This document shows positions 6,677-26,456 of a stretch of DNA of 64,000 nt, one piece after another. Under the pieces are notes generated by a model that saw nothing but the letters and a program-made list of their open reading frames with translations, had not been told where the DNA came from and searched no databases. Position 1 is the first letter of the stretch. The number at the start of each line of letters is the position of its first letter. The DNA lies in the IMG/VR virus record IMGVR_UViG_3300028422_000919, positions 186,001-250,000 of that record. The stretch is one strand, 5' to 3'. Source of the DNA: a virus. The position numbers and the translations under genes were made by a program.

Positions 6677-9600
6677 TCAGCAGAGCCGGCGGGCTCGGGC
6701 TGTCCAGAAGAATTCGCTCTCATTGACGAGGACCGCCTCATCCCCGAACAGCTCCTTCCAGGGTTCGAGTTCCTCCAGCATCGTACCGTCAGGCAGCTTG
6801 ATGCGGAGCAGACGGGTGCCCTTCCCTCGACACTGGATGATGACCCGAGCCAGCTCATCCACGGTCTCGTACCGTAGAGGTCCCCTCAGCTCGAAGATGT
6901 ATTCGTCCCCCTTCTTGAGACCCATAGGAGGGCCGGCAGGCTCCTGGGATTCGACGGCGGCGACCGCCAGGGCAGCCACAGCCTCATCCTGGACAGCATG
7001 CAACGCCGACTGGCCATCGGGGTCCCCATCGGCTCCCGTGTAGGCCAGCGGGACATCCTCAGGGGGACTTAGCTCGGGGTCTTCACGAGGGTCTACCACT
7101 GGGGCAGACAGCGGAGCACTGGGCACAGGCTTGGCGGGCACCAGCGGCTTGGCCTCGGGCCTCTGGCTCGGGTCCTTGGACCAGGCAACCACCTCATCGA
7201 AGTTGTGCATCCTGAAGTACGGGGCCAGCTCAGCCGGGAACTTGGACATCTCGCCCCAGACCAGCCCGTCGGCCACTGCCTTGTCCGGCTTTTTGTACTT
7301 CTTGTTGCCGTTGAACCGTACCTCCCCCGCCCGCATGGCATTCAGGTCCCACTCCACGTCCCAGGCGTGACCGATCTCCACGTCCGATGTTAGAGGGATC
7401 GGCCACTTCTTAGCCAGGATGAAGGCGTTTCGACTCATGAGCGGCTTGATGATCTCAATGGCCTCTTCCAGCACGTCCCCGCTAATGTCAAACACCAGCT
7501 CGTCGTGCATGGTGATAATCATGAGGACCTTGTCCTTGTCCCATCCCCGCTGCTTCATCTCCTTGTACACGAGGGCCATTGCGATCTTCGTGATGTCGGC
7601 GCTGGAGTTATGGACGACCACACCGTCGCAGACGAAGGCGTGTACGCAATCCTTCACCTCCACATCGAACATTTCTACCGGCTCACCCGTGTCCTCTACC
7701 TCTACTACCTGCTCGTAGTTATACTCCAGAAGGGCCGTGATGGTTGAAGGTACCTCTTTCGGAGGGAGCTTTGCCAGATACCGCTGGCACTGTGACTTGC
7801 TACCCGATCCCGCTCTGAGACGAAGCACAGCGGATTTCTCACTACGCTGCAAATCAGCATAGATGCTACTGCCATACACCGTCTCCCCAATGCGCCGGAT
7901 CAAATCCTGTGGAAGTGTGTGCCACTGCCCCGTCCGGGGATTCGACTCGATGGCCCACAATCGGGCGGATTCCTCTGGGATCAAGAATCCTACCTGATTC
8001 CGAAACGCCACCCGGTCCTTGACGAATACACGTTTGCTGTCCAACCGGACAGTAGACCGGATGCCCAGGGTGCGCAGGAGTTTATGGGTGTCCATCAACA
8101 GGTCGGGATTCGTACTACGCACGTCTACTGCCTGTGCCACGTTCACGCAGCCCTCGGCACTGAAATAGCCTCGAAGGAAAGCTGCCCGGTGTCTTGCTGA
8201 CTGGGCCCACACGGCTTCCGGCACCCGCTTGGTCCAGGTATTCCAATCACCCAAACCCAACATACGGCAGAACTCCCGGAAAGCTGTGTTCCAGAAACAC
8301 ACCTGCCACGTCGGGAGGCGGCCATCCCCGTCCACACGGGGCTTCTCCTTCACCGTGGCGGCCAACCCCAGAGGGGGCGCCAGACGGTCAGCATAGTAGC
8401 GGGCCTGCTGTGCCGCATCCGGGCCTCCAACGTGGATGATGAGGCCATCTTCCTGAATAGACCCATCTCCGATGACGAGCCCCAGCAGTTCCCACAGTGC
8501 ATCGTGGTTGCCCTCGAACCTGTAACCTTTCTTGTCCTCGAAGGACAGAACTTGATCTGGCAGTTCCACTCCCACGGCATCTGTGACAACCCACATATCC
8601 GGGGTCAAGTCCTCCTGTCGCACCCAGGTGAGAAGCCCTTCCTCATACACACGGAATCTATGGTCGGGACTGGTTCGCATCACCAACCCCGACATGAGGG
8701 TGGTGTGCATCAACTTCTTGAGCCCCGATGGGAAGGCCCTGCCTTTCGCCCAACAAGTGCCAGTCCACACGTCGAATGTTTTTCCCGACAGATCTTCGAT
8801 CCGTCGGATACCCAAGCTGGTGGGCACTCGACTACCACCGTGCAGACAGCCCTGGATGGGCCCATTCACACTGTTTCGCTCCGCCTTGGAGCGAAACCCG
8901 CCGTCCTCGCTGTTGATGTCGGGCACAGGGTACTTGCGGCCGAAGGCCGTAAGCACATACTCGTGCTTGCGAGCGAAATCCCACTGAGCACGCCACCAGG
9001 AAGCCAGCGTCTTGTACGTCTCGTCGAACTGCCTCTTGACCCTCCAGCCTTCGTTCTTCGAGCATCCCGTGGCTCGGATGACAGCGTTGCCGCCGCCGCC
9101 GTAGCACAGGGCGAAGTTGGTGGCCTTGGCATCCTGACGGAGCTGCTTCCAGTTGGGGCGATCGAGGGCGTCCTCCCCAAAGATGTTCAGGGCGGTCAGC
9201 GTGTGCAGGTCCCCGATCTTGTCGGACCCGCAGTTGGGGCACCGGGGAGGCGGAGCCTCGGGTGTGCAGGTACCATCCCCCTTGTCGAAGGTTCGAGAGC
9301 ATGAGCTACACCGGAAGAACTCGGCCATCCATTTCGGCTCTCGGCTGAGGTTCGTGACCAGCCGCAGCTCCACGCCGCTGAAGTCGATGGCGACGATGTA
9401 CCGCCGGGGGGCTTCCGGGGACTTGGGGGGTCGGGCGGCGATGCACTCTCGTAGCCGCCTCATGCACTCAGGTCTCTCGGGATCGTAGGTTGCCGGAACC
9501 GACTGCAGGTTCATCTGGGGCCAGCCAACAAGCTGGACCTTCGCCTTAGCAGGAGTAGCAAAACGCCCCGTGTCCACCTTGTGGGCACGGAAGTTGATTC

Positions 9601-11098
9601 GCATCGTCCCATCGGTAGGATCAGCCCACTCCAACATTGGGAACAGGTAGTTCGTCAGCGCCTTGTGGACCTCTCGGAACCTCTTGATCTTCCCCATGTA
9701 GGGATACTTGTCCTTGGCGCTCTCGATGACGGCATCCAGGATATCCCTGGATGTCTTGACTTGCCCGGATTTCTCGGTGAACACCAGCCCCGGGACCCCC
9801 AGCTCCCAAAACATCTCCCCGAGCTGCTTGGGGGAAGCCACATCGTAGATGGCGGGCCAGGGTTTCCCCGCCCGAACCACCGGCTCCTTCGGGTCCGTGA
9901 ACCCTAGGGCCTGGTACTGATTTTTGGCCCGCTGGATCTGGTCGTTCAGGAGGTTATTGGGGTTATGGGACTCAAACGTCCGCCGGATAGCCTTGTAGTA
10001 GCCCGGCATCACATCCCTGCCCAGGACCTCGGAGACCGCCTCATACAAATCGAAGATGGACTCGAACCACTCCTGTTGGCCAAGCTGAAGCAGCTCCAAC
10101 ACCTTGGACTTGTCCCGGTAGATGCGGTTACGGTGCATCCACCGGACAGCTCCCACACAACTCTTCTCGATGCCGTAGATAGACTTCTGGGACCGCCCAT
10201 CCTCAGGGTTGACAACCTGGTCGTACACGTTGTCGAAGTGGCGGTAGGTCATAATGCCATCGCCACCGCCATACCACAGGACTTCCTGTCTTCCCGGATC
10301 GAGGGTGGCGAAGTCCATCTCCCCAGTGTGCCCTTCGGGGAACAGCTCGTGCAGCTCGATTTGGTCACAGTGCAGCTCCTGCTCCGACAGGTACTTGAGC
10401 TGCTTGTTCTTGCGCCGAGAGTCCTGAAGGTAGTACAGGATTTCGGTGTCCTCCCAGACACTGGGCTTGTCCCAGTCCCCGAAAGGCTCACCACCCCAAT
10501 ACGTCAGGAACTCTTGATCGAAGATCCCGCCATGAAAGACGGCCCGGACCCTCTTGCCCATCGTGGCTTCAATGAGGCGACGGAACTCCTCCTCGAACAA
10601 GTCCCATGGGATGTTGTGCTCAGCTCCAGCGGTATGCCGGAGGGGGATGTAGTAGCCAGTGACACCGTCAGGGCTCATGCAAACCCCAACGATCTTGTCC
10701 ACCGTCTCTCCCACACCCTGAGCGTTGTAGAACACCCGATTGTCCAGGCCGGTAGTCTCCAGGTCGAGAGCGTAGTACCCGTGTGGAGCGTTGATGCAGT
10801 GATCGATGCAAGCCGCAAGGTTGTCCTGATTCACCAGGACAAACTTACAGTCCGTCATCCAGTCCCGCACCGCTACCTGGGGGTACTGCTGATCGATCAG
10901 GAAGTCGGCACCCGAGAGGGCGTCCTCACCATCACATACGGGAGGGGTGCTCTGGGGGGTCAAGGGGAATCCCCCCTCGTCCTCATCTTCATCATCGTAA
11001 ATGTCGAGAGCGCCCAGGTTGAGAATTTCGTCTTCCGGCAAGATAGGTCCTCCGATGTGTCGTCCAAGCCTCCCTACTCGGTTAGAGGCTGAACTCAT
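6677..11098 (-). CDS. polA: Family A DNA polymerase with 3'-5' exonuclease and intein
   Basis: 1,473 residues; replicates the phage genome. Exonuclease motifs: ALDLETTG with D112/E114, FHGGIFD, and YGGGD. Polymerase motif A is AIDFSGVELR (D572), motif B is RQDAKATNFALCYG (K658), and motif C is MHDELVF (D1199). A 414-residue intein at 751-1164 splits the conserved PIQG/SSADI segment, leaving a mature protein of about 1,059 residues. A CxxC...CxxC zinc ribbon (C597, C600, C620, C623) is inserted just after motif A, which is unusual. After about residue 1240 there is a Pro/Ala-rich linker and a roughly 90-residue C-terminal domain of unknown role. The ATG at 11098 overlaps the upstream gene by 17 bases and has a close AGGGGG. 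The assignment is secure; the roles of the zinc ribbon and tail are unknown. Confidence 0.97.
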   Translation of the reverse strand: MSSASNRVGRLGRHIGGPILPEDEILNLGALDIYDDEDEDEGGFPLTPQSTPPVCDGEDALSGADFLIDQQYPQVAVRDWMTDCKFVLVNQDNLAACIDHCINAPHGYYALDLETTGLDNRVFYNAQGVGETVDKIVGVCMSPDGVTGYYIPLRHTAGAEHNIPWDLFEEEFRRLIEATMGKRVRAVFHGGIFDQEFLTYWGGEPFGDWDKPSVWEDTEILYYLQDSRRKNKQLKYLSEQELHCDQIELHELFPEGHTGEMDFATLDPGRQEVLWYGGGDGIMTYRHFDNVYDQVVNPEDGRSQKSIYGIEKSCVGAVRWMHRNRIYRDKSKVLELLQLGQQEWFESIFDLYEAVSEVLGRDVMPGYYKAIRRTFESHNPNNLLNDQIQRAKNQYQALGFTDPKEPVVRAGKPWPAIYDVASPKQLGEMFWELGVPGLVFTEKSGQVKTSRDILDAVIESAKDKYPYMGKIKRFREVHKALTNYLFPMLEWADPTDGTMRINFRAHKVDTGRFATPAKAKVQLVGWPQMNLQSVPATYDPERPECMRRLRECIAARPPKSPEAPRRYIVAIDFSGVELRLVTNLSREPKWMAEFFRCSSCSRTFDKGDGTCTPEAPPPRCPNCGSDKIGDLHTLTALNIFGEDALDRPNWKQLRQDAKATNFALCYGGGGNAVIRATGCSKNEGWRVKRQFDETYKTLASWWRAQWDFARKHEYVLTAFGRKYPVPDINSEDGGFRSKAERNSVNGPIQGCLHGGSRVPTSLGIRRIEDLSGKTFDVWTGTCWAKGRAFPSGLKKLMHTTLMSGLVMRTSPDHRFRVYEEGLLTWVRQEDLTPDMWVVTDAVGVELPDQVLSFEDKKGYRFEGNHDALWELLGLVIGDGSIQEDGLIIHVGGPDAAQQARYYADRLAPPLGLAATVKEKPRVDGDGRLPTWQVCFWNTAFREFCRMLGLGDWNTWTKRVPEAVWAQSARHRAAFLRGYFSAEGCVNVAQAVDVRSTNPDLLMDTHKLLRTLGIRSTVRLDSKRVFVKDRVAFRNQVGFLIPEESARLWAIESNPRTGQWHTLPQDLIRRIGETVYGSSIYADLQRSEKSAVLRLRAGSGSKSQCQRYLAKLPPKEVPSTITALLEYNYEQVVEVEDTGEPVEMFDVEVKDCVHAFVCDGVVVHNSSADITKIAMALVYKEMKQRGWDKDKVLMIITMHDELVFDISGDVLEEAIEIIKPLMSRNAFILAKKWPIPLTSDVEIGHAWDVEWDLNAMRAGEVRFNGNKKYKKPDKAVADGLVWGEMSKFPAELAPYFRMHNFDEVVAWSKDPSQRPEAKPLVPAKPVPSAPLSAPVVDPREDPELSPPEDVPLAYTGADGDPDGQSALHAVQDEAVAALAVAAVESQEPAGPPMGLKKGDEYIFELRGPLRYETVDELARVIIQCRGKGTRLLRIKLPDGTMLEELEPWKELFGDEAVLVNESEFFWTARARRLC
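7607..8848 (-). other. Intein with LAGLIDADG homing endonuclease in PolA
   Basis: A 414-codon in-frame insertion (polA residues 751-1164). It starts with Cys1 (CLHGGSRVPT, block A), has block B as TSPDH, and ends with canonical VVVHN followed by Ser+1, so self-splicing is expected. Two dodecapeptide motifs mark a LAGLIDADG endonuclease: LLGLVIGDGSI near intein residue 122 and FLRGYFSAEG near 215. Both acidic metal ligands appear present (D in GDG, E in AEG), so homing activity is plausible. The insertion point lies between polymerase motifs B and C, a conserved site where splicing is probably needed for activity. Confidence 0.95.
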
Positions 11099-13313: not shown

Positions 13314-13787
13314 CTATAGGGAACCCTGCATCTTCGCCCGTTTCTCAAAGGTGATGCCGTCGAGGTGATCCAGCTCATGCTGGAAGCAGATCGCCAGGAG
13401 ACCGGAGACCCAGTCGGCAAACGGCTTGCCGTTTTCATCTAGGGCTCGGATGCGGATACGGAAAGCCCTCTGAACCTTGAGGGTCTCCCCGGGGAACGAA
13501 AGGCACCCCTCAGGGATGGAAGTCTCCCCCTCGAAATCCAAGATCTCCGGATTGATGAACACCATGGGGGCGCTCTTCGGGGACACGTCCATCACGAAGA
13601 GGCGGTGGGTCAAACCCACCTGGTTGGCAGCCAGGCCGATCCCGCCCTTCTGGTACATCGTGACGAACATCCGGTCGATTAGGGGACGGATGGCGGCCAC
13701 GTCCTCGACGAGAAGGCAAGGGGTTTCCAGGCGGACATCGGGAGCCTGGATCAGAGGAAGAGGTTCGGATGCCATGTCGGGGATCAC
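13314..13787 (-). CDS. def: Peptide deformylase
   Basis: 157 residues, close to the usual phage and bacterial PDF size. It removes the formyl group from N-terminal Met of new proteins in the cytoplasm. All three motifs are present: GIGLAANQVG (48-57), EGCLSFPG (93-100, metal ligand C95) and QHELDHLDG (136-144, metal ligands H137/H141, catalytic E138). The start is GTG at 13787, with AAAGGAG six bases upstream. It is the first gene of the left minus-strand operon, behind a candidate promoter with TAGAAA. Phage-encoded PDFs are well known, particularly in phages of marine and environmental hosts. Confidence 0.97.
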   Translation of the reverse strand: MIPDMASEPLPLIQAPDVRLETPCLLVEDVAAIRPLIDRMFVTMYQKGGIGLAANQVGLTHRLFVMDVSPKSAPMVFINPEILDFEGETSIPEGCLSFPGETLKVQRAFRIRIRALDENGKPFADWVSGLLAICFQHELDHLDGITFEKRAKMQGSL

Positions 13788-13889
13788 GGGCTACTCCTTT
13801 CAAGGTTTCTACCTTACCCGCAGGGAGAAGGAGGGGTAACCCCGAGTGAGGGTCTGGGTAGTTGGAGGGTGAACGACGGAGACCACTTC
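13788..13889. promoter_or_regulatory. Divergent intergenic control region
   Basis: This 102-base gap separates leftward def from the rightward helicase. On the minus strand TAGAAA (13811-13806) is a possible -10 box about 20 bases before the def start. TTACCC (13814-13819) and GGGTAA (13834-13839) form an inverted repeat, and GGGGTAACCCC (13833-13843) is a short hairpin. The decamer CTACCTTACC (13809-13818) recurs as CTACCCTACC in the other divergent gap at 28772-28781. Promoter or operator function is inferred from these coincidences. Confidence 0.35.
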
Positions 13890-15617
13890 ATGAAAATCGG
13901 ACACGAAAAAATCTTTCCTCAGCAAATTCAGATGGCCACGCTGATTTGGATGCTGCTCTTGGACCGTCTCCAGGGTAACCCCCATGCCAGAACGCCTCTA
14001 CTAATGGCCCAGCCCCAGCAGGGCAAGACAGGGGCGATCATCTGCCTCATCGACAAGTTCATCGACTACTGCGTGAAGCATTCCAAAACATTCCAGGTTA
14101 TCGTGACCTGCGGACTGGCAGAGTTGTCCCTACGGGACCAGACGCTGGCACGCCTCACGGAATCTGTAGCAGATGACGGAATGACGCTGACAGGGGCCTG
14201 CCTCGACATCAAGGCTCGGAGCACTGGGTTGGCTCGGTACAAGCCTGTTGCGGGTACGACAATGCCCGGGATCCTCGTGGTGAACCGATCCACTAAACTT
14301 CGCAGTCTCAAAAAACATCTTCTCTGTGATGTGGATCTTCGACTGGTCATCTCCGATGAGTGCCACGTCGGTAACGGGAAGGGTGGCTGTATGGATAAGT
14401 TCCTGCAGACACTGGGAGTGCGACCAAATCAACAGATCCATACCTGGCAGGACGATGCCTGTGGCGGGAAAACACTCTTCGTCCCCGTGTCTGCAACCCC
14501 GTTCGCCCATTTCGCCCTCTCTGCCAAATATAAGGGGGCTCCGGCATCCCGCACTCTCTATGACACGGTGTATGTAGCCCCAGGTGAGAACTATACAAGC
14601 CCACTGGATTTGTGGGACAACCGTCTTCTTCCTACAGGAGCCCTTTTCTGTAATGTAGGGGACGAGCTGGTCCCTTCTCCCATCCTGGGAGACATCTTCG
14701 ACCATTTCGAGCAGGAGTGCGAAAGCTACGGTCCGGGGTATTCCCTCATGAGGGCTACCGGAAAAGAACACGAAGCCCTCATGGGTTACATTGAGAACCG
14801 TAACCGCAGAGGGATCCCGACTGAAGTCATGTGCTTCGACAGCAAGCCTGGGAAGGATTCGGACTCCAGACCAATTTCAGAATTGCTGTCGCAATTGGCA
14901 ACTCGGCCACAGGTTCCCGTGGTGTTGGTAATCCGAGGTGCTTTCCGGGCGGGTATGACCCTCCCCCAAAACCACTACATCCGCCTCTGGGTAGAAACAT
15001 CTTCCGACAACGTGGATACCCAACTCCAGGCAGGAGTAGGACGGGCCTGCGGGTATGGGCGAAAAGGGGATGTTTTCCCCATCTACTGTGACATCCCCAA
15101 GATCCAAGAAGCCTTGGACTTCTACCGGAATCTGGAGTTTTTGGAGCCGGTGTCCGCAATCCCCTCTGGGGTACAGAACCACCAGGCCCTCAATACGGTC
15201 GATGTCGCTCCCGTGGGGTGGATCTCCAAGCAGGAATGGATTGATGGAAAGGGCATGCTGCATCCCGCAAGAGACCGGATGTGGTTCAAACCAAGGCATG
15301 CCCAAATTGCTACCACCAGGGGCAACATCGCCAAAGATACCGCTCTGCTGACACTACGAGGAACCCGTGAAAGTGGCAACACATGGGGGCATGAGGTCAA
15401 CGGCAAAGCCGATTCGGAGCGTTACCGGGAGTATGTGAGACTGTACCCCGACCGGCAACCCGATTCCACCCTGGAGGCGATGCACCACCACTATGACCTG
15501 TTGCTTAAAACTTTTCCGGGGTGCGAAGGCAACGTAATCGTGTTCGAGCACACTGGGGATGAATCCCCGGATGGTGACTCTATTCAGAGGCGTCGGTCTG
15601 CTCTGGCGGAATACTAA
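13890..15617 (+). CDS. SF2 helicase-like ATPase, possible Z1-type C-terminal region
   Basis: 575 residues from the ATG at 13890 (GGAG eight bases upstream); an in-frame GTG at 13869 has no proper spacing. SF2 motifs: Walker A PQQGKTG (about residue 46), DECH box in VISDECH (about 156), SATP motif III (about 201), and an arginine-finger region QAGVGRACGYG (about 380-390). The stretch around RGAFRAGMTLP leading to that motif recalls Z1-type restriction-associated ATPases, but this is a tentative reading. Likely a DNA or RNA translocase. It forms a two-gene plus-strand island with the next gene, between oppositely transcribed operons. Base composition looks more A/T-rich than the neighbours, suggesting separate acquisition. 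Confidence 0.8.
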   Translation: MKIGHEKIFPQQIQMATLIWMLLLDRLQGNPHARTPLLMAQPQQGKTGAIICLIDKFIDYCVKHSKTFQVIVTCGLAELSLRDQTLARLTESVADDGMTLTGACLDIKARSTGLARYKPVAGTTMPGILVVNRSTKLRSLKKHLLCDVDLRLVISDECHVGNGKGGCMDKFLQTLGVRPNQQIHTWQDDACGGKTLFVPVSATPFAHFALSAKYKGAPASRTLYDTVYVAPGENYTSPLDLWDNRLLPTGALFCNVGDELVPSPILGDIFDHFEQECESYGPGYSLMRATGKEHEALMGYIENRNRRGIPTEVMCFDSKPGKDSDSRPISELLSQLATRPQVPVVLVIRGAFRAGMTLPQNHYIRLWVETSSDNVDTQLQAGVGRACGYGRKGDVFPIYCDIPKIQEALDFYRNLEFLEPVSAIPSGVQNHQALNTVDVAPVGWISKQEWIDGKGMLHPARDRMWFKPRHAQIATTRGNIAKDTALLTLRGTRESGNTWGHEVNGKADSERYREYVRLYPDRQPDSTLEAMHHHYDLLLKTFPGCEGNVIVFEHTGDESPDGDSIQRRRSALAEY

Positions 15618-15619
15618 GC

Positions 15620-16498
15620 ATGTACCGAGGTGACACCCCCGCAAAAACCCGGTGCCGGAAATTGGTATGGGGCCTGCACAAGCGGCTCTTGGGAGAGGCT
15701 TTTCTGTCCACCCCCCACGTTTTCACGGCCTCTCGCTTCGGTGGTGACATCGAGGTACTATTGAAGAAGGGGGTGCCCCCCGATAATGTGTGGGCGGTTG
15801 ATACTGACCAGGAGGCCGTAAGAGACCTTATCCCCCTAAAGAAGCAACGGGGGTTCCGGCTATTTCCCAGAAACATCACCCAAGTGGTACAGCAGAACCC
15901 CTCGGTGCAGTCGGTCTACCTTGATTTGTGCGGGCATCTGAAAGGCCGAGATACCAGGATGTCCATCACGGAGACCGTTCGGTCCTTGCCCCGAGGCAGC
16001 GTTCTAAGTGTCACGCTGCTTCGGGGGAGAGAACAAAATCTCCATATGGACAGGGAACAAGAGCTGATTGGCCTGATCCAGCAACACACAAAGCACCCCG
16101 TGACTCTTTTGCAGGCCCTTTCCTACTTGTCAAACGACCATAAATCGAAAGGGTCCCCCATGATCACTTGGACTTTTGTGCTTCGGGAGCATAAGTCCAA
16201 GGTGAGGAGAGTTGATTTGAGCAAAAACACCGAAAACAAGTCCCAGAAGCAAAGCCAGGCGGCTCGGAAGGCGTGGGAGACTCGCCGTCGCCTAGCGGCA
16301 GAGAAAGAATCCCTGTCCCAGAAACGAAGCCAGGCGGCTCACAAAGCGTGGGAGACTCGACGCCGCTCCACTGCGGAGCAAGAAACCCTCAGTTTTGTGG
16401 ATGAGGGCCTCGGGTCTCCCACTAGCACCACCGTTGAGCCCCTAACGGTGAAGTTGATTCAGTTGTGGCAGCACATGACCCAAAAGCTGAGGGGATAG
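15620..16498 (+). CDS. Rossmann-like protein (possible SAM methyltransferase) with repeated basic tail
   Basis: 292 residues, starting 2 bases after the helicase stop. Residues 35-110 read like a class I methyltransferase core: a hydrophobic strand and FGGDIEVLLKKG loop, then VWAVDTDQEAV with an acidic residue at the end of strand 2, then VYLDLCGHL in the motif IV position. Canonical GxGxG and catalytic motifs are not clear, so it may be a degenerate or novel member. Residues 200-265 hold two copies of a basic module (SQAA-KAWETRRR) encoded by a 75-bp direct repeat, likely nucleic-acid binding. It converges on the Dam-like gene with 2 bases between the stops. Function is inferred from fold hints and pairing with the helicase. 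Confidence 0.65.
   Translation: MYRGDTPAKTRCRKLVWGLHKRLLGEAFLSTPHVFTASRFGGDIEVLLKKGVPPDNVWAVDTDQEAVRDLIPLKKQRGFRLFPRNITQVVQQNPSVQSVYLDLCGHLKGRDTRMSITETVRSLPRGSVLSVTLLRGREQNLHMDREQELIGLIQQHTKHPVTLLQALSYLSNDHKSKGSPMITWTFVLREHKSKVRRVDLSKNTENKSQKQSQAARKAWETRRRLAAEKESLSQKRSQAAHKAWETRRRSTAEQETLSFVDEGLGSPTSTTVEPLTVKLIQLWQHMTQKLRG
16241..16390 (+). repeat. 75-bp direct repeat pair within coding sequence
   Basis: Two imperfect 75-bp copies (16241-16315 and 16316-16390) encode the basic SQAA-KAWETRRR module near the end of the preceding protein. The core AGCCAGGCGGCTC and GCGTGGGAGACTCG blocks are conserved in both copies, with in-frame substitutions between. This looks like internal domain duplication. 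Confidence 0.8.
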
Positions 16499-16500
16499 CC

Positions 16501-17283
16501 CTATTCTGGGGTATCGCCGAACATAGAAAGGATGTCCTTGGGGTCAGTGTGGTTCTGCCACAGAGCTTCCTTACTCACCTTCCCTCCGTGCTTGGCATTA
16601 CTGGCTTTTATGTCCAGATAGGGCTCGAAGGGAAGCCAGTTAGCCCCTACATTCTCACACACCATGACCTGCCCTTTTCTCCCTCGGCACCACTCCCCTA
16701 GACGCTCAAAGTCAATATCTGTCGAACTACACTTGTAGTATTTTCCGGCCTTGGCATAAGGAGGATCGATGAACCAAGTCGCCTCAATGTCAGGAGCATC
16801 CTCATAGCTACTCTCGATCAGAGTCCAATGCCGAATATGGTCCACCTGGGAGGCGATTCGTCGCTTCACAGGGGACCCCCATCCAACATTGAACGACCTG
16901 CTAGATGCCTTGCCAAACTCTCCCCCTCTGTGCCTGCGAGCCCAGGAACTCAAAGTTTTGCCGGGTCCGGTACCCGCCTGATTGAGCCACCAACCGATCA
17001 AATACCGGGCTTCCTCACACACATTCAGATCCTCCACGCTCTGGCCCTCTTGAATGTCCGGAAGGGCCAGAATTTCCTCGGGTTTGACCCGAATCAGGTA
17101 CTTCCATGTGGCGGCGATCACCGGATCCTTTTCGATCAGGATGATGTTTTTTTTGTGGTGGTATACCGAGTACCCGGCCCCCCCGCAAAAAGGTTCCACA
17201 ATGGTATCGTAGTCTGGCTCAGGGTAATGGGGAGCCGCCCGATACTTCCCGCCGTAGAAGTAGAAAAAAGGCTTAAGGATCAT
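16501..17283 (-). CDS. Dam-like (D12 class) DNA adenine N6-methyltransferase
   Basis: 260 residues. An N-terminal FYGGKYR and SAM motif I VEPFCGGAGYSV (29-40) are followed by ILIEKDP (about 49-54) and catalytic motif IV FIDPPY (171-176). This is the order of D12/alpha-class adenine methylases such as Dam and M.MboII-like enzymes. It would methylate adenine in a short target on phage DNA, probably protecting it from host restriction. The region between 60 and 165 is the likely target-recognition part. The ATG at 17283 follows a GGGGGG tract. It is the last gene of its operon and converges on the plus-strand island. The recognition sequence is not predictable here. Confidence 0.92.
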   Translation of the reverse strand: MILKPFFYFYGGKYRAAPHYPEPDYDTIVEPFCGGAGYSVYHHKKNIILIEKDPVIAATWKYLIRVKPEEILALPDIQEGQSVEDLNVCEEARYLIGWWLNQAGTGPGKTLSSWARRHRGGEFGKASSRSFNVGWGSPVKRRIASQVDHIRHWTLIESSYEDAPDIEATWFIDPPYAKAGKYYKCSSTDIDFERLGEWCRGRKGQVMVCENVGANWLPFEPYLDIKASNAKHGGKVSKEALWQNHTDPKDILSMFGDTPE

Positions 17284-17309: not shown

Positions 17310-18746
17310 TTAAATTGGCTTATAGCCCACCATGAAAGGTTCCCAAGATGGGCGGAGGGCAGTTCCGTACCCCTCCCATAGAGCGGCTTCGGATGAGGCG
17401 GCTTTCGTGAGGTACTGCACCCCAGCGGACCCGGCATCCCCTTCCCCCTTGAAACCGTCAACCTCCCCTGCGTTTTTCCGCTTGGAGTTGGGTCGGCTGG
17501 AGGGATTGACTCCTACCACCTCTCGCTGTTCCTCAACACCCAGATACTTGTCGATGCCCCTGCTGACGTTGAGGTTCTTCGGAAATCCGGAATTCCCCGT
17601 GATGAACACTTTGTCCTTGCGGCGAGCCAGGAAAGCACCTGAGGGCACCCGGACGCACCAGACAACACCCTTATACGAGGTCTCAGACTCTCGGAGATGC
17701 CGAGACTGGAACTGCGTCTGAGGGATCATGTGGAGGCTCACTGAGCCCTTGTCGAAGTTTACCCGCCCCTGGCGATCCATTAGGTGGGCCAGGGTCTGAA
17801 ACCAGACCAGATCCCGGGGGTCTTTCTGGTACAATACGGGACACCCGCTCTCGGTAGACCCGTCACTCTTGATGGCAACGCTCACGAAAGCGTGTTTTTC
17901 CTCCTGGCTCATCCCCCACAGTAGCTTCCAGGTGGGGTGTTTGCCCGGCAGGTCCTCCCGCACCCGCTGGGCCGTCTCTCCCGAGAAGAACCAACAGAAC
18001 TCGGTGTCCGGACGGCCCTTGTGCCCCCGATCACAAAGGGACACTTCGTGTTCTGGCACGAGCTTGTCCAGCAGATCCTGAATCTCCTGGACATGTTCGG
18101 GGTTGACCGAACTCTGATAAATGCGGACCCCCGTACCCTTGTCGTCGAAGCCGCCCTTCGCCCAAACCCATGCCAGAAGGCGAGCCCAGTCCGGACCCCC
18201 GATCCCCTGACCGTGGTGCATCCCAGCCAAAGGCAGGAACATGTGGTTCCACCGAGGGATCAGTCCAGCTTCCTTGACATCCCACTTCGGCTCGTACCAC
18301 GACCAGAGGCCCCCTGCCTCCATCTTACGGTGCTGGGGGCGATGGTAGACCCGGTGGTTGGGGGTCAGGAGCTGATCGGTATTGTCGTTGCGGAATACGG
18401 TCATCTGGCCCTCGAAAGGTGCCCGGATAACTTCTGCCACAGCCTCCAACTGGATGGTGCTGGTCTCCGCATCCCAGGCAGCCACCTTTTCCCCCTGCTG
18501 GACATCCACACCCAGCTTCCAGCCCTCAGCGGTCAGAATCTCGGTATCCTCGGACAAGCAGCCATAACCCCACGCCTCCATCTTGAGGTCCTGGAACCCC
18601 ACCTCTTCGAGCACCTGGGCCAAACGGTGGTAGGTTCGGGTGGCCGAGAACACCTTGACCACCCCACCGGGCTTGAGCTTTCGGTACACCAGGGACCACA
18701 GCTCAGCCGAGAAGGCAACACCGGAGCGGTCCCAGTCCTTGGACAT
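17310..18746 (-). CDS. DNA methyltransferase N-terminal third (after stop) with intein
   Basis: 478 residues. Extein residues 1-62 (SKDWDRSG, LKPGGVVKVFSATRTYHRL, EAWGYG) and 386-478 (SGFPKNLNVSRGIDKYLG, GYGTALRPSWEPF) match the front part of phage beta-type adenine/cytosine-N4 methyltransferases. A 323-residue intein separates the conserved YG/SGFPK motif. The catalytic DPPY lies upstream, beyond an in-frame TGA at 18762-18764; both parts share one frame. No good ribosome binding site precedes the ATG at 18746, so reinitiation would be weak and readthrough is possible. The protein ends right after the WEPF motif, where family members normally continue into a middle region and the SAM-binding motif. 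Those parts resemble the genes at 20167-20556 and 20556-21353. Confidence 0.8.
   Translation of the reverse strand: MSKDWDRSGVAFSAELWSLVYRKLKPGGVVKVFSATRTYHRLAQVLEEVGFQDLKMEAWGYGCLSEDTEILTAEGWKLGVDVQQGEKVAAWDAETSTIQLEAVAEVIRAPFEGQMTVFRNDNTDQLLTPNHRVYHRPQHRKMEAGGLWSWYEPKWDVKEAGLIPRWNHMFLPLAGMHHGQGIGGPDWARLLAWVWAKGGFDDKGTGVRIYQSSVNPEHVQEIQDLLDKLVPEHEVSLCDRGHKGRPDTEFCWFFSGETAQRVREDLPGKHPTWKLLWGMSQEEKHAFVSVAIKSDGSTESGCPVLYQKDPRDLVWFQTLAHLMDRQGRVNFDKGSVSLHMIPQTQFQSRHLRESETSYKGVVWCVRVPSGAFLARRKDKVFITGNSGFPKNLNVSRGIDKYLGVEEQREVVGVNPSSRPNSKRKNAGEVDGFKGEGDAGSAGVQYLTKAASSEAALWEGYGTALRPSWEPFMVGYKPI
17592..18560 (-). other. Intein in methyltransferase, degenerate endonuclease
   Basis: A 323-codon insertion beginning Cys1 (CLSEDTEILTAEGW, block A) with block B TPNH (in LLTPNHRVYHR). 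It ends KVFITGN followed by Ser+1. The penultimate residue is Gly instead of the usual His, a tolerated but less common ending. Two regions, LLAWVWAKGGFDD and FVSVAIKSDGS, sit where LAGLIDADG helices belong but are poorly conserved, so the endonuclease is probably decayed. The insertion site between YG and SGFPK is inside a conserved methyltransferase motif, so splicing is needed to restore the fold. Confidence 0.88.
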
Positions 18747-18761
18747 GAATCCAATCTCAAG

Positions 18762-18764
18762 TCA
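18762..18764 (-). other. In-frame TGA interrupting methyltransferase after DPPYE
   Basis: Reading down the minus strand, DPPYE is followed by TGA, then CTT GAG ATT GGA TTC ATG in the same frame, giving DPPYE-stop-LEIGFMSKDWD. Related enzymes typically read DPPYE(I/L)GFM-KDWD. Removing the nine bases TGACTTGAG, which are flanked by a GAG on each side, would restore that motif exactly. The stop is followed by C, a context known to make UGA leaky. It is either a small insertion that broke the gene or a programmed readthrough site. Confidence 0.8.
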
Positions 18765-18896
18765 CTCGTAGGGAGGATCAGTGACGATTGCGACGACCGA
18801 GTCGTCGTCCATCTCCTGAATGCGGACAGTGCAGTCCCCAAGCAGGAGGCGGAACGTCAGATCCTCCCTACGAGCCTTGGCAATCTCCTTCGGCAC
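18762..18896 (-). CDS. Methyltransferase N-terminal fragment carrying DPPY
   Basis: 44 residues from a GTG at 18896 with GGAGG eight bases upstream; the open frame runs back to 18989 without a better site. It contains the typical methyltransferase start: FRLLLGDCTVRIQEM, DDDSVVAIV and catalytic TDPPYE, after which an in-frame TGA ends it. It is the missing front of the 17310-18746 frame. On its own it cannot be an enzyme. It may be read through into the downstream frame, act in trans, or be a pseudogene remnant. Confidence 0.65.
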   Translation of the reverse strand: MPKEIAKARREDLTFRLLLGDCTVRIQEMDDDSVVAIVTDPPYE

Positions 18897-19069
18897 GAGG
18901 GTTTCCTCCAGTGAATGGTTGAACGAACATACCCAGGCTGCGGCACGAGTGGCAGGCCATCTGCTCTCGTGAGTGCGCATACTCCTCACGGGCTGAGAGA
19001 AAGCCTACCCCCTGTACCCACCTGTGGAAGGAGGGCTTCGGGGGGACCCCGTGAAAACAGTCTGGATGG
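18897..19069. other. Gap with no confident gene
   Basis: This 173-base stretch separates the lipoprotein stop from the chosen methyltransferase GTG. A minus-strand frame ending at 18868 could encode a short peptide (from an ATG about 30 codons before the stop, with CHSC), but it lacks a good ribosome binding site and overlaps the methyltransferase start. No hairpin followed by a T-run was seen. Confidence 0.4.
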
Positions 19070-20556: not shown

Positions 20557-21353
20557 CACTCTCCTTCAAACATCAAGTCGAACAGGTTAGGCTCCGTTTC
20601 CACGAGTGCTTCCGCCGCATACCTTTTCTCAGTCTGGAGGTTCAGCAATCTCTGGCCGGGGTGAACCTGACTCCAGTGCTCCAGCCGTGCGGTGGCAATC
20701 TCCACGTACTCGGGCGTCATGTCGATGCCGGTGAAGTCGTGACCCGTCCGCAGACAGGCGATGCCCGTACTTGCCGTCCCCATGAAGGGGTCAAGGATGT
20801 GACCCTGGGGAACATCCCTCAGAAGGTTGTGGAGGAGCCTCCAGGGCTTTAGGGTTGGATGGTCGTTGTGGACCTCTTTGACCGTGCGGGAGGCCCCTGC
20901 ACGGGGGCTTCTGAGGCCATCCGAACCCTCTTTACGCCCGGTGGCCTCCGCCCCGGACTTACCTGGAAGATGCCCGCAGCCGGCTTCCCTTTCCGCTCGT
21001 CCTACCTTGGGGACGTAATGGAAGGGGTCCGTAGCGTCCTCGACCACCAGGATGGTGTCCCGGATCTCGAACCCCCCGTCTTCGAGGTTTACTGCCCCCC
21101 GGTGTCCGAGGGGGTTCCCCTCGGGAGCAACCACTAGCATGTGGGCTCCCGGCTTAAGGACCCGCATCATCTCAGCGGTGTCCTCTTCCGTCGGAGTCCC
21201 CACTGCCAGGATGCCCGTCACGGTCTCGTCTTTCACCGACGACCAGTTCATCTCCTGAATGTCAGGGATGAACATCGCCCCCGGGTGGGGATCCGGGGGC
21301 GACAGGAAGGTGAGCAGATACTTGACCATGTCCGAGGGGAGGGGTCTGCTCAT
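20556..21353 (-). CDS. DNA methyltransferase with SAM motif but degenerate DPPY
   Basis: 265 residues. The C-terminal half is a classic methyltransferase end: HYVPKVGRAEREAGC, SDGLRSPRAGA, NDHPTLKP (163-170), SAM-binding DPFMGTASTG (188-197), and FTGIDMTPEYVEIATARL. The N-terminal half keeps MMRVLKPGAHMLVVAP and GGFEIRDTI, but the expected catalytic DPPY is replaced by ILAVGTP (about 48-54). The middle target-recognition region is absent. Alone it should bind SAM but probably not catalyse. The DPPY is encoded at 18762-18896 and the missing middle at 20167-20556. The ATG overlaps the ClpP-like stop. Confidence 0.85.
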   Translation of the reverse strand: MSRPLPSDMVKYLLTFLSPPDPHPGAMFIPDIQEMNWSSVKDETVTGILAVGTPTEEDTAEMMRVLKPGAHMLVVAPEGNPLGHRGAVNLEDGGFEIRDTILVVEDATDPFHYVPKVGRAEREAGCGHLPGKSGAEATGRKEGSDGLRSPRAGASRTVKEVHNDHPTLKPWRLLHNLLRDVPQGHILDPFMGTASTGIACLRTGHDFTGIDMTPEYVEIATARLEHWSQVHPGQRLLNLQTEKRYAAEALVETEPNLFDLMFEGE

Positions 21354-21994
21354 TTGCTCTCTCGAATCTCGTCCACGAGACCGTACTTAAGGGCGGTCTC
21401 GGGATCCAGCCACAGGTCCCGCTTGAGGGTTAGGGCCAACTTACGGGCCGGGATCTTGGTCCGCTCCTGGTAGATCGCCTTGACGTGATCCATCAATAGG
21501 GTGGAGTTCGCCAGATCGTCCTTCTGCTCCTCGAAAGTGCCACTGAACCACGTCGAAAGCTGGTGGATCAGAATGAACCCATGCTTGCCGATAGTCCGGT
21601 GGGTCCCCGCCACCGACATGAGGGTAGCAGCCGAAGCGGTAGCACCCTCGATGTGGGTGTGGACATCCAGTGGGCACTCCCGGATGGCGTCATGGAGGGC
21701 GAATCCGGCGAACAGGTCCCCTCCGTGAGAGTTGATGTGCAGATGGATAGGCGGTGGAACAACCCCCCACGTCAGGGCCATCCGCTGCAGGTCCAAAGCG
21801 GTCTCCCGGATGTCAAGGATGAGGGACGCCGCCGACTCTTCGGACACGTCCTCGTAGAAATACAGGTGGTTCCGATCCCGAGAGGATTCCTTCCCCAAGC
21901 TCATAGCCTGGGGCATTCCGGCCTTGATGATGGTGATCGGGGGCAGCTCTTCCACTTCTTCCGCCCCATTCGCCCAGTGTCGCCTTCGAGTCAT
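21350..21994 (-). CDS. ClpP-like serine protease
   Basis: 214 residues. The ClpP fold is marked by HINSHGGDLFAGFALHDAI (86-104), nucleophile Ser121 in EGATASAATLM, catalytic H144 in FILIHQLS, and Asp193 in KRDLWLDPETALKYGLVDEI. Phage ClpP-like proteins often act as prohead proteases, but no capsid genes are nearby. Here it sits between the DnaB-like helicase and the methyltransferase pieces, so a different role is possible, such as degrading host or phage regulators. The ATG has AAGGAG five bases upstream. Confidence 0.93.
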   Translation of the reverse strand: MTRRRHWANGAEEVEELPPITIIKAGMPQAMSLGKESSRDRNHLYFYEDVSEESAASLILDIRETALDLQRMALTWGVVPPPIHLHINSHGGDLFAGFALHDAIRECPLDVHTHIEGATASAATLMSVAGTHRTIGKHGFILIHQLSTWFSGTFEEQKDDLANSTLLMDHVKAIYQERTKIPARKLALTLKRDLWLDPETALKYGLVDEIRESK

Positions 21995-24623: not shown

Positions 24624-26456
24624 TCAGTCCTCGAACAGAGCGTCAAGGTCTTCATCGTCGTCCCCGAACACCACACCAGGCAGAACCCCCTTTTCTTTGG
24701 GGTCCCTTTGGGACTTCGGGATCCTGCGGGCCTCTTCGGCCAGCTCCTGGTGGACCTTCTTGCTGGTGTTGTTACGCTCAAGTGCCTTGAGGCCAGCCTC
24801 CTGGCGGGCCTCCTCCTCCAGGCTGGCGTAGATGTCCGCCACCTCGGGGGTTACCGGGATGAACGAGATCTCATCCGCCTCGGACTCCCCCTTGATCCGC
24901 TGTCCCAGGACGGCCTCTACGAGTTCCATCTTGTTGTCCAGGACCTCGATGACCATGTGGTCGATGGTCTTCCAAGCCCGCTTGGACTCATGGCGCCGGG
25001 ACACCAAATGAACAGCGTAGCAACGGTCGTGCCGAGAGCCGATTCGGATCATGCGACCCAGAACCTGGAGGTATTCTCCTGCCGACCAGGGGGTATCGAA
25101 GAAGACGATAGCCTTGGCTGATTGGAGATTGATCGCCTCCCCGCCGGCCGATGTGATGCAGATGACCCGGCAGGGATCATCATGGCCCTGGAACTGTTTC
25201 TTGGCCTCGTTCCTTTGCTTGGCGTCCTCATCCCCGGTCACCCGGACCACATACTGGTTTTTGTCTTTCTTGCCGGTGCTGAGGGCCTGCTGGATGGCAG
25301 GCACCAAGATGTCCACCATCGTCTTGAACCGGGTGAATACGATGACGTTCTCCCCATCAAAGTCCTCGGTCAGCAACTCGATTAGCTTATCCAACTTGGA
25401 GCTGGGACCTTCCTGCCCCGCCAGCTCCAAGTGGTTCGCCGCCTGCTGGTAGTACATAAGAGCGGTGAGCTTCGTGATCTCCTTCTCGTTCTCCCCGAAG
25501 AACATGGGGTTCTTGTTGGCGACCGCCGAGGCGATGTCCGAGTACAGGGTCTCCTGAGCCTTGGAAAGGGGGACTTCGACATTCTTACGGATGAGGACCG
25601 GCAGCTCTTCTGCCACGGCGTGCTTGGGGCGCCCGAGATAGAAGGGGTCAATGGTGTCCCGGAACTCCTGGATGCGCTCGGGGATGTACCCCACCATCTT
25701 GGGGACTCTTCGTCCCCGCCCCACGTCGACCATCTCCATGAGGCAGTAGTGCTTCTGGAAATTGGTGACGTGATTGGAGAACAGGCCGGGCATGACCACT
25801 CGGTAGATGGAGTACCCCTCCACCAAATGATTCTTGATGAGGGTAGCCGTGGCGGCCCAGAGTCTGGTGCAGTGGTTGGCAAGATGGCAGACCACCTGGT
25901 GGGTCTGGCTGTCCTTGTTTTTGTAGGCGGTCGCTTCATCCGTGATTAGAATGTAGCCCTCGTAGTCCTTGAACCGACCGAAGTCCTGCCACGCCTTCTT
26001 GTAGTTCATCACGATGACTTTGGGGCCATCGGCAGACAGATACTCGTTCCAGATCTTCCCTCTTTTCTCGGGAGGGCCTTCATAGAGGAAGGCGTTGACC
26101 CCCTCGGTGAACTTGTTGAACTCCTCCACCCACTGAGGGGCCGAAGACTTCGTGGTCAAAATGACGGCGGGGGTGTCGGGGGTCTTATCCCAGATCAGGC
26201 TGAGTCCAGCGATAATCTCCAGAGTCTTGCCCAGGCCGGTGTCGTCCCCTACAAGGAACCGCCGCATAGCAGCCAGATGAACCACCATCTGGATCTGATA
26301 GTAGCGGAGGACAAGGGGCTTCTCCTTGCCGTCCATCGGGTCAATGTAGGTGCTCCGGAGGTACTTGTTCGGAGGGAGCTTGAGGTCCGTTCGCTCCCTC
26401 ATCCTCTTTAGCTTTTCGTACAGCTTCGCCAATCGGTCTTCCGATTCCAAGTCCAC
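24624..26456 (-). CDS. SNF2-family SF2 helicase
   Basis: 610 residues from a GTG start with GGAGG five bases upstream. SNF2 motifs: Walker A DDTGLGKTLE (K77), motif Ia LTTKSSAPQW, motif II TDEATAYKN (D173), motif III ATATL, motif V SAGGEAINLQ, and motif VI LGRMIRIGS. The C-terminal 100 residues are helical and end in an acidic tail. Phage SNF2-type helicases assist recombination and fork remodelling or displace proteins from DNA. It belongs to the helicase-loader-DnaB run. Confidence 0.93.
   Translation of the reverse strand: MDLESEDRLAKLYEKLKRMRERTDLKLPPNKYLRSTYIDPMDGKEKPLVLRYYQIQMVVHLAAMRRFLVGDDTGLGKTLEIIAGLSLIWDKTPDTPAVILTTKSSAPQWVEEFNKFTEGVNAFLYEGPPEKRGKIWNEYLSADGPKVIVMNYKKAWQDFGRFKDYEGYILITDEATAYKNKDSQTHQVVCHLANHCTRLWAATATLIKNHLVEGYSIYRVVMPGLFSNHVTNFQKHYCLMEMVDVGRGRRVPKMVGYIPERIQEFRDTIDPFYLGRPKHAVAEELPVLIRKNVEVPLSKAQETLYSDIASAVANKNPMFFGENEKEITKLTALMYYQQAANHLELAGQEGPSSKLDKLIELLTEDFDGENVIVFTRFKTMVDILVPAIQQALSTGKKDKNQYVVRVTGDEDAKQRNEAKKQFQGHDDPCRVICITSAGGEAINLQSAKAIVFFDTPWSAGEYLQVLGRMIRIGSRHDRCYAVHLVSRRHESKRAWKTIDHMVIEVLDNKMELVEAVLGQRIKGESEADEISFIPVTPEVADIYASLEEEARQEAGLKALERNNTSKKVHQELAEEARRIPKSQRDPKEKGVLPGVVFGDDDEDLDALFED

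Follow-up and report, generated by a model that had tools for sequence, protein, structure and literature searches.

A low-GC cassette encoding an SF2 helicase and a methyltransferase-fold protein in a variable slot of a large phage, tentatively read as a DNA-modification unit

The window analyzed here, a 64,000-nucleotide stretch of DNA, runs from base 186001 to base 250000 of a phage record of metagenomic origin that is 402,383 bp long. Two plus-strand genes, which we call genes 1 and 2 (Table 1), lie within it between minus-strand genes on either side: a Dam-like methylase gene downstream and, directly upstream, a peptide deformylase gene (13314-13787; PHROG 2890, 8e-33). The two open reading frames, their inversion relative to both flanks and their contact with the Dam-like gene had been proposed in a preliminary description of this DNA, and all were found as described. 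Gene 2 begins 2 nt after the stop codon of gene 1, a spacing suited to translational coupling of the two; the stop of gene 2 lies 2 nt from the 3' end of the Dam-like gene. The gene 1 frame is open from a GTG at 13869, but a GGAGA at 13878-13882 has better ribosome-binding spacing for ATG 13890, which is therefore the likelier start. No sigma-70 consensus was found in the gap upstream of gene 1.

Table 1. Features of the cassette, in window coordinates
Feature	Position	Strand	Detail or basis
Short spacer separating gene 1 from the divergent deformylase gene; sole place where the pair could have its promoter	13788-13889	+	sequence
Gene 1: SF2 DNA helicase/translocase, apparently related to the GREB1 cpSF2 domain but unpermuted	13890-15617	+	575 aa from ATG 13890
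Gene 2: predicted class I methyltransferase-fold protein (residues 1-192) with a helical basic tail	15620-16498	+	
Gene 2 tail repeats: two tandem 75-nt copies coding basic KAWETRRR	16240-16389	+	80% identity
Adenine DNA methylase of Dam/D12-like type, facing gene 2 in convergent orientation, within the same low-GC stretch	16501-17283	-	profiles, GC

The base composition of this region differs from that of its surroundings. The GC content of gene 1, gene 2 and the Dam-like gene is 0.553, 0.557 and 0.533, respectively, compared to about 0.60 in neighboring genes, and their GC3 values of 0.63-0.67 compare to 0.71-0.79 in the nearest genes. Among all 3415-nt segments of the 64 kb, the GC minimum is the one starting at 13869, at -3.5 sd (GC of the three-gene stretch, 0.550; window mean, 0.603; sd, 0.015). 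The A/T-richness ascribed earlier to the pair is therefore borne out by GC and GC3, with the low-GC stretch taking in the Dam-like gene as well. Because all three genes together form the lowest-GC stretch of that length, we consider the unit to be three genes rather than two. No long direct or inverted repeat bounding the cassette was found when looked for. The cassette looks to have been acquired from another source.

The cassette was sought in two relatives of the phage. It is missing, although its flanking genes can be recognized, from contig L005 (DnaB 87% identical to that of the window) and from LR745208.1 (polymerase about 48% identical). Neither gene 1 nor gene 2 has a match anywhere in the whole records of these two relatives, a type of search that can miss very divergent copies. 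We conclude from this absence, at the slot and elsewhere, that genes 1 and 2 are accessory genes; the possibility that both are core replication genes conserved in all close relatives, against which the preliminary description had set its reading, does not hold for these two phages. On one side of the slot are the methylase genes of the phage and on the other its primase and DNA polymerase genes; in L005 the same slot holds a different N6/N4 methylase together with a ParB-like-looking gene. For this phage group, the cassette also marks a variable site that takes up modification genes. Elsewhere in the window, a ClpP-like protease gene (21350-21994, minus strand) adjoins the DnaB gene; no such gene was found in the corresponding gap of L005.

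The Dam-like gene is matched by PADLOC MTase_II (4e-42) and PHROG 56 (3e-19), and by Pfam MethyltransfD12 at a sub-cutoff 4e-4. More methylase genes adjoin the cassette. One of them, of the N6/N4 type (17310-18989, minus strand; L005:18057-18745), is split directly after its DPPYE motif by a stop codon (TGA in the window, TAA in L005); in both, another ORF begins at a nearby ATG, and the split is conserved between the two. By eye, this methylase (17310-18746, minus strand) has an intein-like insert, as do the L005 methylase and the LR745208.1 DnaB, and the window's PolA (6677-11098, minus strand) carries a LAGLIDADG intein.

Gene 1 was previously described as an SF2 helicase, and its catalytic motifs support that assignment, as do the Pfam ResIII matches of its family. 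Numbered from 13869, these are Q50-x-GKTG, D163-E164-C-H, S208-A-T-P, G357-A-F-R-A-G and Q387-x3-G-R-x-C-G-Y. Seven other members of its family were identified, all of them in metagenomic viral contigs, several of which exceed 300 kb. A scan of IMG/VR with a motif-VI DNA pattern (D....Q...GR.CGY) led to relatives in 335-, 317- and 401-kb contigs and one of 4.7 kb, and an alignment-based search to five more relative-bearing contigs of 23 to 388 kb. SF2 motifs I (GKT), II (DExH), III (SAT) and VI-like (QxxxGR) are invariant or nearly so in alignments A2 and A3; Q-x-GKTG, DE, the ATP of SATPF, G362 and QxxxGRxCGY are invariant in all eight members. A profile of six members, leaving out gene 1 and L028, its closest relative, recovered gene 1 at 2.7e-22, as the only match among 516 window ORFs and 200 shuffles. 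Pfam ResIII matches six of the eight members, and gene 1 itself has no ResIII match at E<=1. Since none of the SF2 catalytic motifs is missing, gene 1 very probably encodes an active translocase of nucleic acids driven by ATP.

This helicase family seems to be little described, since tblastn with six of the eight members against 50,697 phage records gave no match. For gene 1, plain tblastn against phages and plasmids gave nothing worth following, and no relatives were returned by default peptide-pattern searches or by a pattern from alignment A1, whose artificial rows were made to steer the choice towards motifs. Bacterial genomes were scanned solely with poor patterns that missed the viral relatives too. 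Sequence searches of the PDB gave nothing meaningful, and the predicted structure of gene 1 (pLDDT 36) was useless as a model. The Z1 helicase family, tried as a candidate, has no match in the phage.

All eight members match the Pfam family cpSF2-GREB1 (PF20692), whose curated cut-off is 26.2. Gene 1 scores 24.6 bits at motif I, below the cut-off and its sole hit in the profile libraries, and the relative in L032 scores 26.3, just over it. In the profile, motif I lies at 669-704 and motifs Ia-III of the relatives align at 26-164; motif I of gene 1 (residues 36-62; 46-82 in the L034 member) aligns to positions 669-702. The viral proteins do not have the circular permutation that places motif I at the C-terminus. 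Because motif I comes first, in reverse of the profile order, they appear to be relatives of the GREB1 domain in unpermuted form. A gene of L028 (4817-5710) considered as a TAGT glycosyltransferase was dropped, as Pfam TAGT does not match it.

Gene 2 has no match in Pfam, PHROG, NCBIfam or PADLOC and no detectable homologue, pattern searches having returned chance matches only. Its structure model is of low confidence (pLDDT 51.7). Compared with the PDB by Foldseek, the model gave 296 matches at E<=0.001 (best E, 3e-6), and nearly all of those listed are methyltransferases; the best VIA-align Z for this low-confidence model was 14.2, over residues 10-192. Judged from the model, residues 1-192 form a Rossmann-like class I methyltransferase fold, so that the methyltransferase-like partner with ill-fitting catalytic motifs proposed earlier is supported at the level of predicted fold. 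The loop that follows strand 1 contains a GG and strand 2 has D61 at its end; motif IV, YLDLCG, is non-standard for DNA methylases and lacks homologues with which to judge its conservation. The repeated basic tail is also as first described: QAA(R/H)KAWETRRR units are coded by the tandem duplication, and no second copy of the tail repeat was found in the phage record.

We favor, tentatively, the interpretation that the three genes constitute an acquired accessory cassette for DNA modification or processing in a variable slot. The anatomy of the cassette is well supported, and its mechanism is offered with the same tentativeness as the interpretation. Gene 1 would move on or remodel DNA, the tail of gene 2 would hold nucleic acid, and gene 2 would either methylate the bound nucleic acid in an unusual manner or act as a SAM-binding scaffold. 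Together with the Dam-like enzyme, they may act on the DNA of the phage itself, modifying or processing it, most likely to counter host restriction. In favor of this interpretation we count the family membership of gene 1 with its intact motifs, the ResIII and cpSF2-GREB1 matches of that family, the predicted fold of gene 2, the low GC shared by three genes, the absence from two relatives and the methylases nearby; against it stand the lack of a detectable gene 2 homologue, the non-standard motif IV, the low confidence of the gene 2 model, and the absence of a gene 2-like partner beside other helicase family members.

The main rival, possible if somewhat doubtful, is that gene 1 serves large phages on its own, as an accessory helicase in replication, recombination or transcription, with gene 2 an unrelated passenger that follows it by chance. 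Consistent with this, most relatives of gene 1 stand alone, with no neighbors common to contigs outside close pairs, and the cassette adjoins primase, polymerase and DnaB genes. However, the phage already has an SNF2-type SF2 helicase (24624-26456) in addition to DnaB, both phage relatives do without gene 1, and genes 1 and 2 are alike in composition as well as nearly contiguous.

The preliminary description had proposed either a defense against competing phages or DNA modification. The second proposal is retained in the interpretation we favor; the first, a restriction-like system in which gene 1 is a Res-type translocase and gene 2, the Dam-like enzyme or both are the modification arm, is unlikely. 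The ResIII matches in six family members would fit such a system, as would L014:1-4707, the only other contig of the family in which a methylase was seen nearby. There, an SF2 helicase of the GREB1-like kind, bearing a C2H2 zinc finger at its N-terminus, is flanked by an N6_N4 methylase and an ORF in which a PD-(D/E)XK pattern can be made out by eye; this may be a viral restriction-modification locus. However, Pfam does not match that ORF, in the neighborhoods retrieved a methylase is missing beside most relatives, which mostly stand alone, and no nuclease domain was found in genes 1-3 with Pfam and NCBIfam, profiles that can miss divergent nucleases. Nor did PADLOC yield a convincing family, its best E value being 0.048 for gene 1 with none for gene 2. 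A role in a glycosylated or oxidized base pathway, by analogy with the helicase-glycosyltransferase fusion of GREB1 (PMC6163654) and given the cpSF2-GREB1 similarity of every member, is very improbable, as TAGT, Tet_JBP and thymidylate synthase families are unmatched in the phage record, which may be incomplete, and the first two also in ten other records searched, eight of them helicase-bearing.

The cassette can be compared with three known systems. Gene 2 would share its Rossmann-like fold with class I SAM-dependent methyltransferases such as MnmM (8h26), PMT-2 (4kri) and NodS (3ofk), but is only about 4-16% identical to them, has degenerate motifs I (SRFGGD) and IV (LDLCG), and adds the repeated basic tail. 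The gene 1 family shares the SF2 core and motifs of ResIII-type helicases (type III restriction subunit, UvsW-like), but has the distinctive Q-x-GKTG, SATPF and QxxxGRxCGY motifs, and the profiles found no nuclease domain in gene 1. With metazoan GREB1 cpSF2, all eight viral members share similarity at motif I, across motifs Ia-III, or both. Human GREB1 is oestrogen-induced and its biochemistry is poorly understood (PMC6163654). Unlike the viral proteins, the GREB1 helicase is circularly permuted and presumed catalytically inactive, and it forms a fusion with a glycosyltransferase of the TET/JBP-associated type (PMC6163654). It is conceivable, though improbable, that large viruses hold an undescribed helicase family, catalytically intact and unpermuted, that the GREB1 helicase of animals descends from kin of this family, and that the viral helicase is here teamed with an orphan methyltransferase-fold enzyme to install a novel DNA modification. 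With its intact and normally ordered motifs, the viral family provides a tractable biochemical relative of GREB1.
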